A DNA stretch of 54,663 nucleotides from an uncultured Prevotellaceae bacterium (GTDB lineage: Bacteria > Bacteroidota > Bacteroidia > Bacteroidales > Bacteroidaceae). The notes below the pieces were generated by a model. That model was not told the DNA's origin. It saw only the letters and a program-made list of their open reading frames with translations, and did not search any database. Made by a program: the position numbers and the translations under genes. Below are positions 10,569-34,150 of the stretch, in pieces. Position 1 is the first letter of the stretch. Each line of letters opens with the position of its first letter. The stretch covers positions 1 through 54,663 of the forward strand of contig CADCDK010000016.1 in NCBI GenBank assembly GCA_902800185.1, in the 5' to 3' direction.

Positions 10569-10997
10569 TTACTTCTTCGTCCTATCCACCCAGTTTTCAA
10601 TCCTGATACCCTGGATGTTCTTGAAGTCATCCACGTTCTCCGTCACCATCACCATGCCCTCCTCCACCGACGTGCAACCGATGAGCAGGTCGAAATCATC
10701 GTCCGACCGTGTTCCGGCCAACTCCAGTCGAGCCCTCTCTTCAGCGTAAGCATCAAAGTATGGCATAATGCGCAGCACCTCTATGTTGTCGAGAAATTCC
10801 TCCAGCTTCTGGTTTTTGTACTTTGGGCCTCCCTTCAACAGGCCATAAATCTTGCCGTACTTCAGCTCGGCGACAGTGACTTCAGAGATACAGCAATTCT
10901 CCATGCCCACTTCGTTGACGCGGTACTTGATATCATACTTGTCACGCAACCAGAAAGCGCAGATGTTCGTGTCAAGCAAATAGCGTTGATGTTTCAT
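10569..10997 (-). CDS. vapC: PIN-domain toxin (VapC family)
   Basis: A 142-residue PIN-domain ribonuclease. The acidic metal-binding residues are visible: D9 in YLLDTNI, E44 in VTVAELKYG, D101/D103 in DDFDLLIGC, and the VTENVDDF strand at 118-125. VapC toxins cleave tRNA or rRNA and are held inactive by a cognate antitoxin. The start overlaps the stop of the upstream antitoxin gene by four bases (10994-10997), the classic toxin-antitoxin arrangement. Target RNA cannot be told from sequence. Confidence 0.88.
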   Translation of the reverse strand: MKHQRYLLDTNICAFWLRDKYDIKYRVNEVGMENCCISEVTVAELKYGKIYGLLKGGPKYKNQKLEEFLDNIEVLRIMPYFDAYAEERARLELAGTRSDDDFDLLIGCTSVEEGMVMVTENVDDFKNIQGIRIENWVDRTKK

Positions 10998-11287
10998 GGC
11001 TCACTGAAGAATTTGTCCCAGAACTCCCGCCTATGGCTCTTCGAATGGCGCACTTCGTTGAGGTGATCCACCAGCTCGTCGGCATCCATATACTCCTCAT
11101 CGCTCCAAATACCGGCATAGTCACATGCATCCAGCTTCTTTTTCTTCGGCTCCATCTTAGCGGGCTTAACGCTCTCTGCCAGCATTGTTATCAGCTGCAA
11201 CTTCTGGCTGTCGTCCAAGTCTTTCAGCATCCCCCAGTAATGGGTGATGGGTCGTCTAGTCGTCCGTCTCTTTACTGTTCCTTCCAT
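10994..11287 (-). CDS. Antitoxin partner of the PIN toxin
   Basis: A 97-residue basic/acidic protein directly upstream of and overlapping the PIN toxin. The N-terminus is basic (VKRRTTRRPI) and may bind DNA; the C-terminal half (SDEEYMDADELVDHLNEVRH then REFWDKFF) is the kind of helical tail that wraps a PIN toxin. I do not recognise a classical AbrB, RHH or Phd fold, so the antitoxin assignment rests on position, size and coupling. Confidence 0.7.
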   Translation of the reverse strand: MEGTVKRRTTRRPITHYWGMLKDLDDSQKLQLITMLAESVKPAKMEPKKKKLDACDYAGIWSDEEYMDADELVDHLNEVRHSKSHRREFWDKFFSEP

Positions 11288-11536: not shown

Positions 11537-11544
11537 TACTTTTG
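11537..11544 (+). promoter_or_regulatory. -7 promoter box for structured RNA/fimbrillin leader
   Basis: Plus-strand TACTTTTG followed by CAAC, a good TAnnTTTG match. Transcription would start near 11550 and run through the structured region that ends with a terminator at 11733. Confidence 0.6.
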
Positions 11545-11549
11545 CAACG

Positions 11550-11733
11550 TGTTCTCATATGAGACACAAGACATATTAGGCTCTTACATCACCGAATCAC
11601 CACCTCGAAGATAAAACGAGCCTTACAACAAAAGCTATTAGAGCGTCGTGCCATGTGCGCAGGCGTTTCTATGAAGCTTTTGGGGTTTGTGGTGAACCTT
11701 GGTGATGCGTAGAGATGGTCTGCGCATTTTTTT
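11550..11733 (+). ncRNA. Structured leader or small RNA upstream of fimbrillin gene
   Basis: No credible gene lies between 11290 and 11810. Downstream of a -7 box, nested complementary segments are visible: 11587-11593 pairs with 11701-11707 (7 bp), 11597-11603 with 11689-11695 (7 bp), and 11629-11636 with 11675-11682 (8 bp), plus a local hairpin 11604-11620. The outer stem's 3' arm shares bases 11705-11707 with the terminator hairpin ATGCG/CGCAT, so the two structures compete, as in an attenuator. It may instead be a free-standing RNA of about 180 bases; a 6S-like or Bacteroidales-1-like RNA is possible but unproven. Not a riboswitch class I recognise. Confidence 0.5.
11705..11733 (+). terminator. 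Intrinsic terminator in fimbrillin leader
   Basis: ATGCG (11705-11709) pairs with CGCAT (11723-11727), followed by an uninterrupted run of T to 11733. It lies 78 bases before the fimbrillin-like gene, so that gene is expressed either by readthrough or from an unseen promoter. Confidence 0.6.
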
Positions 11734-11810
11734 GAATCAAAAACCAATGAGAATAATAAGAAGTCTAACATAAAAGGTTTCACAAATAAAGTTTCTAAAA
11801 TTATATTCGT

Positions 11811-12953
11811 ATGAAAAGATTTGTTTCTCTTTTGGCCTTGACCTTTTGCTTGACGGTAGGCATGGCGCAGACGTATAAGATGGTAGTGCGTGTGAACAAC
11901 GGTACGGAGATGGGTTTTCCCGACGGTAAGATTGCAATTCCCGTTAATGACATCAGCGAGGTGACGTTTGAGGAAATTGCCGAAGAGGTGATACCAGAGG
12001 TTTGGACTTCCATCACATTTCAGTTTAAGGATTATTCATCGGCTACACGCTCACCTATGAGGAAAGCTCCTGCGTTGGAAACGAGGAGATATGGTGTATT
12101 TGGCTGTAAAAACGGTGAGCCACTAAGTCAGGACAATCTCTCTGCCAATTTGATGAACAATCAGGAGGTTACATTCGTAGGCGACAGATGGGAATATTTT
12201 CCGATTAAGTATTGGCCTCCAAAGGAAGAGGGCAGCAACTATGCTTCCTTCTTTGCCTACTCTCCGTATTCCGATGGCAATAGTTTCGTCAGTGTCAATT
12301 CTGCGTCTTCTGAGCCTGTAATTGAATACAACTCTGTCAATCCCATGGATGATGCTGGCGATTTGCTATATGGAAGTAAGATAAACGCAACGAAAAATGA
12401 CAATAATGGTTGTGTGACAATCGATTCGAAACACGCTTTGGCGCGACTGAACCTAAAGGCTGTTGCGGCTTGGGATATTGATGCAAATACGAGGATTACC
12501 ATCAAGAGCATCAAAATTAGCGGCCAGATTCCGAACAAAGGTTCATTCGACTTATATAGACAGCAATGGAAAAATCTTTCGACTGATGTGCAGACCTATA
12601 CTTTAGAGGGCGACAATCTTGCGGCAGATTTGCGTGATGCTGGTAACACATTTGCAGCAAATCAACCCGAAGGTGTTACATCTAACAGCAAATCTATTGG
12701 CGTAAGTCCCTACTTGCTTATTCCGACGGACGGCGAAAAGACAATCACTATCACGGTAGATTATTTCATCACTACTGACGATGCCAAACTTTCCACGGGC
12801 TACTCAAGAATTGAAAATGTTATTGCCAAGTCTTTGAAACTGAGCCTTAACGCTGGTTATAGCTATGACTTGCAAATTATTTTGGGCCTAACTTCTTTGA
12901 AATGTGATGTAAGCGCCAATTCCTCATGGGAAAATTACAACATTAACCTCTGA
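11811..12953 (+). CDS. Fimbrillin-like secreted protein
   Basis: A 380-residue protein with a signal peptide (MKRFVSLLALTFCLTVGMAQ). After a short N-terminal segment (residues 20-55) resembling the 'NGTE-x-xFP-x-x-I-x-x-I-x-EVTFEE' opening of Prevotella surface proteins, the rest shows the fimbrillin (FimA/Mfa) pattern: Ser/Thr/Asn-rich beta strands, DLLYGS and ALARLNLKAVAAWDIDANTR, SPYLLIPTD, and a C-terminal NAGYSYDLQIILGL strand. No lipobox is visible, unusual because many fimbrillins are lipoproteins. It is followed by a second secreted protein after 7 bases. Probably a surface or fimbrial subunit; ligand unknown. Confidence 0.7.
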   Translation: MKRFVSLLALTFCLTVGMAQTYKMVVRVNNGTEMGFPDGKIAIPVNDISEVTFEEIAEEVIPEVWTSITFQFKDYSSATRSPMRKAPALETRRYGVFGCKNGEPLSQDNLSANLMNNQEVTFVGDRWEYFPIKYWPPKEEGSNYASFFAYSPYSDGNSFVSVNSASSEPVIEYNSVNPMDDAGDLLYGSKINATKNDNNGCVTIDSKHALARLNLKAVAAWDIDANTRITIKSIKISGQIPNKGSFDLYRQQWKNLSTDVQTYTLEGDNLAADLRDAGNTFAANQPEGVTSNSKSIGVSPYLLIPTDGEKTITITVDYFITTDDAKLSTGYSRIENVIAKSLKLSLNAGYSYDLQIILGLTSLKCDVSANSSWENYNINL

Positions 12954-12960
12954 TATAAGT

Positions 12961-13428
12961 ATGAAAGGAATTATTATTGCAATGTTGCTGTCCGTTCTGC
13001 CTTATGGCATTTGCTTCGCCGATGGCGCACGTTTCTTGGTGGTGAACTCGAAAGACGGCACGAAAACAATATTCGCGCTGGCAGACGAACCAAAGGTCTC
13101 TTTTGTCGACGGTGAATTGTCTATCGTCAGCAATAGCAAGAAGTTCGCAATGAACATTGCCGACGTGAAGAACTACGCTTTTGCGGAGGGATCGACTGGC
13201 ATCGGTGAAGTCATTAAGAACGGAAATGTGAAAGTTGAGAATGGTTGCGTGATTTTTGGCGGCATGACGGCTGGCTGCAGGGTTTCGGCTTATATGCAGG
13301 ACGGACGGCTGATAAAAGAATACACTGCCAATGCAAACGGAACTGCGTTTATTGATTTGTCGATATTGCCAAAAGGAATTGTGATTCTGCATTCGAGTAA
13401 AACGAACATTAAGGTTTTGAACAGATAA
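12961..13428 (+). CDS. Small secreted protein with sorting-domain-like C-terminus
   Basis: A 155-residue protein with a signal peptide (MKGIIIAMLLSVLPYGICFA). Residues 25-70 are beta-rich (FLVVNSKDGTKTIFALADEP) as in the N-terminus of the upstream fimbrillin-like protein. The C-terminal 45 residues (MQDGRLIKEY, then GTAFIDLSILPKGIVILHS and KTNIKVLNR) follow the 'DG-x-L... DLS-x-LPKG-x-Y-x-x-... K-x-x-x-x' pattern of type IX secretion sorting domains. It could be exported or anchored with the neighbouring subunit. Function unknown. Confidence 0.6.
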   Translation: MKGIIIAMLLSVLPYGICFADGARFLVVNSKDGTKTIFALADEPKVSFVDGELSIVSNSKKFAMNIADVKNYAFAEGSTGIGEVIKNGNVKVENGCVIFGGMTAGCRVSAYMQDGRLIKEYTANANGTAFIDLSILPKGIVILHSSKTNIKVLNR

Positions 13429-33953: not shown

Positions 33954-34027
33954 AGCCTCTTGTCGGATTCGAACCAACGACCCCGAGATTACAAATCACG
34001 TGCTCTGGCCAACTGAGCTAAAGAGGC
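33954..34027 (-). tRNA. tRNA-Thr (anticodon TGT)
   Basis: The minus strand begins GCCTCTTTAGCTCAGTTGGC and gives a cloverleaf with acceptor GCCTCTT/AAGAGGC, D-loop GCTCAGTTGGCCAGAGC, anticodon loop TTTGTAA and T-arm GTTCGAATC. 74 bases without the CCA end, which is therefore added after transcription. It is directly downstream of the SRP RNA in the same transcript. Confidence 0.92.
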
Positions 34028-34150
34028 GGGTGGGCAAGCGATCCGTATCGCGCCGCTACAACCAACTACCTTTGCTACGTTCCCGTCCTGGAGGATTCGA
34101 AGGGAGCTGGCCGTACGGGACTTACCCGTTTTCATTCGCTTTTACTTAAG
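34028..34150 (-). ncRNA. ffs: Signal recognition particle RNA (small bacterial type)
   Basis: The minus strand contains CCAGGACGGGAACGTAGCAAA, broken here as CCAGGACGGGAAC and GTAGCAAAGG: the SRP domain IV hairpin with GGAA tetraloop and the AGCA-side internal loop (compare CAGGTCCGGAAGGAAGCAG in E. coli). Flanking stems are visible (GGGTAAG near the start with CTTGCCC near the end; CCCGTA with TACGGA). The RNA binds Ffh and directs membrane proteins to the translocon. The ends are approximate: the start is set by the -7 box at 34157 and the end by the tRNA. Confidence 0.8.

Follow-up and report, generated by a model that had tools for sequence, protein, structure and literature searches.

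Leader region in front of a fimbrillin-like gene

The window analysed here is a 54,663-nt stretch of the genome of an uncultured Prevotellaceae bacterium (contig CADCDK010000016.1, forward strand). Upstream of a fimbrillin-like gene it carries a putative leader RNA of roughly 185 nt that lies between a promoter-like box and a T tract. The features of this copy and of the genes behind it are as follows:

11537–11544, + strand: –7 box TACTTTTG (TAnnTTTG), position in the window copy
11545–11733, + strand: leader RNA region, taken from just after the –7 box through the T tract; the actual 5′ end probably lies a few nucleotides further in
11549–11567, + strand: variable 5′ hairpin P0 (MFE pairs 11550–11556/11561–11568), variable in the alignment
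11570–11575, + strand: GACATA segment, found in many copies by alignment; weak candidate partner of the terminator region
11579–11583, + strand: 5′ strand of hairpin A, GGCTC (helix counts); weakest helix
11588–11593, + strand: 5′ strand of rod helix P1, ATCACC; lengthened to 11595 in the MFE fold
11597–11603, + strand: 5′ strand of rod helix P2, TCACCAC (MFE fold and helix counts)
11618–11622, + strand: 3′ strand of hairpin A, GAGCC (helix counts)
11629–11636, + strand: 5′ strand of rod helix P3 (MFE fold and family-level counts)
11655–11673, + strand: 5′ (apical) strand of the long terminator stem, GTGCGCAGGCGTTTCTATG (RNAalifold consensus and helix counts)
11675–11682, + strand: 3′ strand of rod helix P3 (MFE fold and family-level counts)
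11684–11698, + strand: hairpin B, GGTTTGTGGTGAACC, with the stem GGT/ACC and a P2 strand within the loop
11689–11695, + strand: 3′ strand of rod helix P2, GTGGTGA (MFE fold and helix counts)
11701–11706, + strand: 3′ strand of rod helix P1, GGTGAT; lengthened to 11699 in the MFE fold
11704–11728, + strand: local terminator-like hairpin, then T run; its 3′ strand is common with the long stem
11708–11727, + strand: 3′ side of the long terminator stem, CGTAGAGATGGTCTGCGCAT (RNAalifold consensus and helix counts)
11811–12953, + strand: first downstream gene, fimbrillin-like, 380 amino acids (Pfam PF13149 Mfa_like_1, E 1.4e-19)
12961–13428, + strand: second ORF of a likely operon, 155 amino acids, signal peptide-like, no Pfam family

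A sequence-only reading of this stretch had proposed an attenuator layout ahead of a fimbrillin gene. The PF13149 match supports this, and the order of promoter, leader, T-tract terminator and ORF was found as read from the letters. The product of the second ORF is, by eye, like the first downstream proteins of loci L017 and L025. Divergent from the leader RNA, a gene for a PIN-domain protein (10569–10997, – strand; PF01850, E 3.2e-7) is overlapped by a small upstream ORF (10994–11287, – strand) in a toxin–antitoxin-like arrangement. Elsewhere in the window, a Bacteroidales small SRP RNA was located at 33954–34134 (– strand), with tRNA-Thr directly after it.

Folding of 11550–11733 gave an MFE of –61.4 kcal/mol (z = –3.85), and none of 200 dinucleotide shuffles matched it. 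The three nested long-range stems described previously are all present in the MFE fold: P1 (11588–11595/11699–11706), P2 (11597–11603/11689–11695), and P3 (11629–11636/11675–11682). The intrinsic terminator corresponds to the terminator-like hairpin and T run at 11704–11728; shuffles contained 1.3 such sites on average. The outermost stem had been said to share bases 11705–11707 with the terminator stem. A 10-pair terminator stem does have bases in common with P1, at 11704–11706; in the MFE fold, however, a 7-pair terminator (11707–11713/11719–11725) adjoins P1 without overlap, so P1 and the terminator of the window copy need not exclude each other. This overlap of two or three bases is minor. 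The conserved pairing that would exclude the rod, that of 11655–11673 with 11708–11727, was absent from the earlier account. No tandem repeat was found inside the window's RNA.

The box TACTTTTG conforms to the Bacteroidetes-type –7 promoter consensus, TAnnTTTG, in agreement with the promoter noted previously. A sigma-70 scan did not list the box and returned two matches, no more than in shuffles (mean 3.4).

Occurrence and genomic surroundings

A DNA search of 60 relatives yielded matches in 11 genomes, the window's own included; two of these matches (L010 and L011) span the promoter region only. Covariance model R1 was built from ten full-length copies of nine genomes (alignment A2). The window copy was among these seeds, so its R1 match (11544–11732, 156.9 bits, E 4.9e-36) is given by construction. 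At E ≤ 0.001, R1 matched 190 of 398 same-genus genomes and 80 of the 175 of high quality, with six candidates scored per genome and nine of the 190 genomes having held the ten seeds. The count was 16 of 393 genomes for the order and 1 of 296 for the phylum; both include the genome of the window. The copy number per genome was 0–9 at E ≤ 0.01 (twelve genomes, fuller scoring).

At least 120 stretches in named genomes were matched by a pattern search that used the P2 strands and hairpin B only (TCACCAC and GGTTTGTGGTGAACC). The 80 matches listed include Prevotella, Phocaeicola vulgatus ATCC 8482, Dysgonomonas, Coprobacter, and Muribaculaceae. Among them, the named relatives are mostly Prevotella or Prevotellaceae, and one locus (L107) is titled Clostridiales while the others bear Bacteroidota names. 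Eight IMG/VR contigs also had a pattern match. The pattern is silent on the remainder of the RNA, yet R1 matched every locus of both sets scanned: 88 of 88 loci in a first set (89 matches; the 80 pattern matches and the eight IMG/VR loci) and 61 of 61 further loci (62 matches; 40 pattern matches and 21 loci fetched via R1).

The copy in L107 (622–798, + strand) is a full R1 match of 122 bits on a contig titled as a Clostridiales MAG; this may be a mislabelled MAG or wrong binning, or a case of spread beyond Bacteroidales. The complete genome of P. vulgatus ATCC 8482 holds one copy (L123, 5747–5924, – strand). By blastn, the P. vulgatus copy was unmatched in the plasmid and phage collections and the window copy in the plasmid collections. 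L141 carries two oppositely oriented copies (834–1008, + strand, and 2669–2842, – strand), separated by about 1.7 kb. In L003 (G006:C76; 714–809, – strand), similarity is lost by eye beyond the apical strand and R1 still gives 56 bits; this copy is perhaps a decayed or recombined element.

A TAnnTTTG box starts 5–8 nt 5′ of the model start in 74 of 90 copies, bordering on the aligned RNA or running slightly into it; the background is 0.00085 per position. The 3′ end of the RNA is T-rich, with 5–7 T per 10 bases in 76 of 89 copies (background peak 2–3). The T tract is often interrupted, the longest run being three or shorter in 36 of 89 copies, two of which are a motif-finding artefact. The median distance from the RNA end to the first ORF is 35 nt (n = 88 copies with an ORF found). 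With ORFs called mechanically and not taken from annotation, the nearest downstream ORF was co-directional in 162 of 176 cases, 134 of them within 100 nt (202 distinct placements), and the nearest upstream ORF was on the same strand in 89 of 138. Promoter spacing, ORF distance and strand, and the T-rich end point to a cis-acting leader and not to a separate gene.

Clustering of the 162 proteins encoded by the co-directional downstream ORFs gave 92 clusters, of which 61 have a single member; some of these proteins are not those of the directly following gene, since only 134 of the 176 ORFs were co-directional within 100 nt. By a simple hydrophobicity rule, export-like N-termini were present in 117 of the 162 compared to 206 of 775 other ORFs of the same loci. 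BspA-type leucine-rich repeats occurred in 11 of 72 downstream proteins scanned with Pfam; fimbrillin, dockerin, type IX sorting domains, and DarT were among those found once or twice each (25 of 31 Pfam families listed). No common pathway emerged among the downstream genes from the Pfam scan and clustering. The fimbrillin-like protein of this locus is one of about 92 downstream clusters. Loci L048 and L049 carry 100% identical RNAs with different genes behind them, their upstream flank being also common. The RNAs of L072 and L076, likewise 100% identical, precede different genes within differing flanks, the upstream one less alike than in L048/L049.

In L123 and L230 (13260–13438, + strand), the leader stands behind a gene that is MobV relaxase-like by eye and precedes a gene with an export-like N-terminus, as if the latter were cargo of mobilisable elements. 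In L224 (1466–1649, – strand), the leader is near genes that are phage-structural by eye and fronts a lipoprotein-like ORF, which by eye resembles the ORF behind the leader in L230.

At curated thresholds, no Rfam 15 family matched the leader stretch; the sole match up to E 10 was a weak one to pntA (E 7) on the opposite strand at 11779–11836. At 16 loci with diverse copies, no Rfam family overlapped the leader RNA. The leader RNA was thus overlapped by no known riboswitch or Rfam cis-regulatory family, either in the window or at the 16 diverse loci, in agreement with the previous statement that the RNA fits no known riboswitch class. Comparison with 6S (RF00013) and Bacteroidales-1 (RF01693), suggested at the same time, gave no match in the stretch at E ≤ 10 and none in the window's genome (83.58% complete). 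In 11 of 12 genomes tested, all carrying the leader RNA, Bacteroidales-1 sits at other places, and R1 did not match any of four RF01693 loci up to E 10. Because RF01693 is present elsewhere in the same genomes and unmatched by R1, the leader RNA is not Bacteroidales-1, and identity with either family was rejected, as neither model matched. Both known RNAs resemble the leader RNA in length (about 180 nt) and in a rod-like shape if the nested rod helices alone are drawn, and RF01693 is also a Bacteroidales RNA; the leader RNA differs from them in that it can be multi-copy and is positioned before genes.

In L188, a DUF805b RNA (RF02914; 6923–6954, – strand) was detected 44–75 nt downstream of a leader copy. 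This RNA is likewise a cis element by its Rfam annotation as cis-regulatory, but it is 35 nt long, has a separate position, and belongs to a different model. Since it lies just downstream of the leader copy, the two cis elements may act in series.

Among the papers listed in a literature search, judged by title and start of abstract, none describes the leader RNA, though an entry in a supplementary table, e.g., of PMC8040213, is possible. The passages obtained from PMC8040213, PMC9723704, PMC2864571, and PMC10994844 do not describe it, and a search of PMC8632094 for four taxon names gave no match. Judged from sequence comparisons, the leader RNA is real, conserved, and not described in Rfam 15 or in the literature searched.

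Two crossing sets of conserved helices

The conserved helices fall into two sets, each of them nested: the rod of P1, P2, and P3 (fold R), and hairpins A and B with the long stem (fold T). The two sets cross. On the ten seeds, RNAalifold chose the long pairing between the apical strand and the terminator region over the rod (18 pairs in the consensus). Because fold-T pairs are part of model R1, alignments A3, A5, and A6 are biased towards fold T. Their 241 R1 matches were filtered by length (239 left), uniqueness (197), and identity below 93% (178). Covariation was counted on a sequence-only MAFFT alignment (A7), with helix columns chosen after seeing the data. For A7, 110 of the 178 copies were drawn, 109 at random, and six were dropped (L180 and L202, cut off at the contig end; L252, L161, L124, and L172, long), which left 104 distinct rows.

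Across the 104 rows, 88.2% of the cells of the rod were paired, with a covariation score of 0.457 vs. 0.155 in shuffles; the respective values for fold T were 92.9% and 0.338 vs. 0.193. Changes on both sides were seen in 16 of 20 pairs of the rod (6/6 in P1, 3/7 in P2, and 7/7 in P3) and in 21 of 22 pairs of fold T, including all 14 counted pairs of the long stem. P2 was paired in 100% of cells in all 104 rows despite two-sided changes at three positions. Hairpin A was the weakest helix, with 69.7% and 89.1% of its cells paired. None of 500 shuffles reached any of five measures for either helix set, and a shift of the partner by 1–3 columns collapsed the covariation of both. The check on homologues that the sequence-only reading had recommended therefore came out strongly, for both helix sets; as no Rfam family matched either, neither of the two refuting outcomes named in that reading occurred. 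G–U pairs numbered 267 and A–C mismatches 92 (other mismatches, 313), an excess that indicates RNA of this strand.

A tree-aware test was performed with 178 non-redundant copies, likewise in a sequence-only MAFFT alignment, and 60 null alignments simulated along the tree. Twelve pairs had E ≤ 0.05. P1 and P3 contributed four each, hairpin B (rank four) and the long stem (E 0.05) one each, and the remaining two connect P1 with a neighbouring column. The four P1 pairs were above every value of the 60 simulated alignments. In this test, E 0.05 was reached by no pair of P2 or hairpin A and by one of the 14 long-stem pairs. The top pairs by APC (78 copies, in an alignment fitted to the long stem between apical strand and terminator region) include P1, P3, hairpin B, one long-stem pair, and some pairs outside the helices.

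The computed energy of the apical strand paired with the terminator region of the same copy was –24.6 kcal/mol, vs. –16.9 kcal/mol with those of distant copies; the own partner was better in 95% of 178 copies. Pairing of GACATA with the terminator region was rejected as weak, the own partner surpassing swapped ones in 69%. Counted at fixed columns, with hairpins in other registers left out, 102 of 104 rows keep the long stem (7 of 9 pairs) and 75 keep the local hairpin (5 of 6 pairs); the local terminator was therefore dismissed as the main conserved stem. Loci L158, L226, L113, L249, L250, and L251 keep the long stem with three or fewer of the six local pairs.

ATG frames of at least eight codons are present in 96 of 104 rows, with differing start columns. 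The commonest ATG (A7 column 236, 68 of 104 rows) falls inside the long terminator stem. In 90 copies it opens 73 frames: 46 end ahead of the gene, 15 run into it in a different frame, and only 12 continue into its reading frame, so this ATG is probably kept by base pairing. Leader-peptide attenuation was disfavoured, as no start or frame is common to all rows.

Proposed attenuator model and rival explanations

We consider it probable that the leader RNA acts in cis as a two-state transcription attenuator and that gut bacteria carry it as a portable module. Its evolution supports two folds that would compete, and one of them finishes in an apparent stop signal, so a portable on/off switch is probable. 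In fold R, P1, P2, and P3 would form and keep the apical strand off the terminator region, which would allow read-through into the gene. In fold T, hairpins A and B would form, and the stem of the apical strand with the terminator region, directly 5′ of the T tract, would lead to termination. A ligand, protein, or RNA at hairpin A or the P1–P2 region may set the balance between the two.

In rod-constrained ensembles of 176 copies, the 3′ strand of the terminator was paired locally with a mean probability of 0.14, with the 5′ segment with 0.50, and with neither with 0.35. Since local pairing is so infrequent, the rod should permit read-through; this is less clear for the window copy and for the 19 of 176 rod ensembles where the local hairpin prevails, because rod and local terminator coexist there. 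Fold T should stop transcription because its stem abuts the T tract. The rod was computed to be 12.8 kcal/mol more stable on average than fold T (lower in 167 of 175 copies), and in 142 of 175 it came to within 0.5 kcal/mol of the MFE, so fold T would need to be kinetic or stabilised by something.

Known systems offer partial parallels. In trp-type attenuators, mutually exclusive strands choose the terminator or the antiterminator. The leader RNA would have such strands in common with them, but it has no conserved leader peptide, and its outer rod strands are about 100 nt apart. Riboswitches such as those for c-di-GMP (GEMM) are likewise structured leaders with a terminator, and the many downstream genes that they control are unrelated and often code for the cell surface; the leader RNA is larger, has no Rfam riboswitch match, and bears Bacteroidota names in all of its 80 listed matches but L107. 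Two-state leader attenuators are a known kind of element; what appears to be new is this particular family, how far it reaches, and that it is indifferent to the gene downstream.

Because the helices barely overlap, the main rival is a single compact, multiply pseudoknotted RNA in which all helices exist together and the long stem closes the fold beside the T tract, either a riboswitch aptamer with a built-in terminator or a ribozyme-like fold. P1, P2, P3, hairpin A, the core of hairpin B, and the long stem indeed occupy almost non-overlapping columns. We regard such a fold as rather unlikely: the helices split into two nested, mutually crossing sets, hairpin B as counted has one column common with each of P1, P2, and P3, and the linkers of 1–2 nt beside the long stem would seem tight. 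Of the two options named earlier, an attenuator and a stand-alone sRNA, the distance to the gene makes the latter less likely. A trans-acting sRNA, with the downstream gene reached only via terminator leak, is improbable since the ORF starts at a median of 35 nt past the RNA end, which leaves little room for a second promoter. The strand bias of the downstream ORFs (162/176 vs. 89/138 upstream) and the 0–9 copies in twelve genomes also speak against it, even if promoter, strong fold, and terminator make up the layout of an sRNA gene and identical RNAs stand before different genes, as in L048/L049.

Palindromes of a DNA element, e.g., a recombination site of mobile gene cassettes, could mimic RNA helices, and both the identical RNAs with different flanks in L072/L076 and the copies seen by eye on contigs with mobile-element genes would suit it. 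Given that G–U pairs exceed A–C mismatches (267 vs. 92), that promoter spacing is regular, and that the helix sets cross, we think this very unlikely. Type III toxin–antitoxin loci (ToxI) consist of a promoter, a structured RNA, a terminator, and an ORF. The leader RNA agrees with them in the order of parts, and DarT is one downstream protein, so that the RNA half of a similar pair, pseudoknotted and followed by its protein, was also considered. It is scarcely credible here: the 162 downstream proteins form 92 clusters, mostly export-like and with no common toxin, the window's RNA has no tandem repeat, and no ToxN-like endoribonuclease is among the Pfam families listed for the 72 downstream proteins scanned, which were 25 of 31 in one scan and all of them in two others.

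The two-state attenuator thus remains the preferred reading. We tentatively suggest, as a broader possibility, that its copies constitute a new signal-sensing switch class, which might govern a Bacteroidales-wide regulon of accessory, mostly exported proteins, mobile-element genes included, and serve as a promoter-plus-leader module that newly acquired genes can come under. Two crossing, covarying folds would make a clean natural case for studies of RNA switching. With the L123 copy, the proposed switch, its signal, and termination are testable in a culturable commensal, P. vulgatus ATCC 8482. The leader RNA would give a new handle on the control of surface and mobile cargo genes in Bacteroidales; if the suggestion is true, one signal controls surface and cargo genes across this order.
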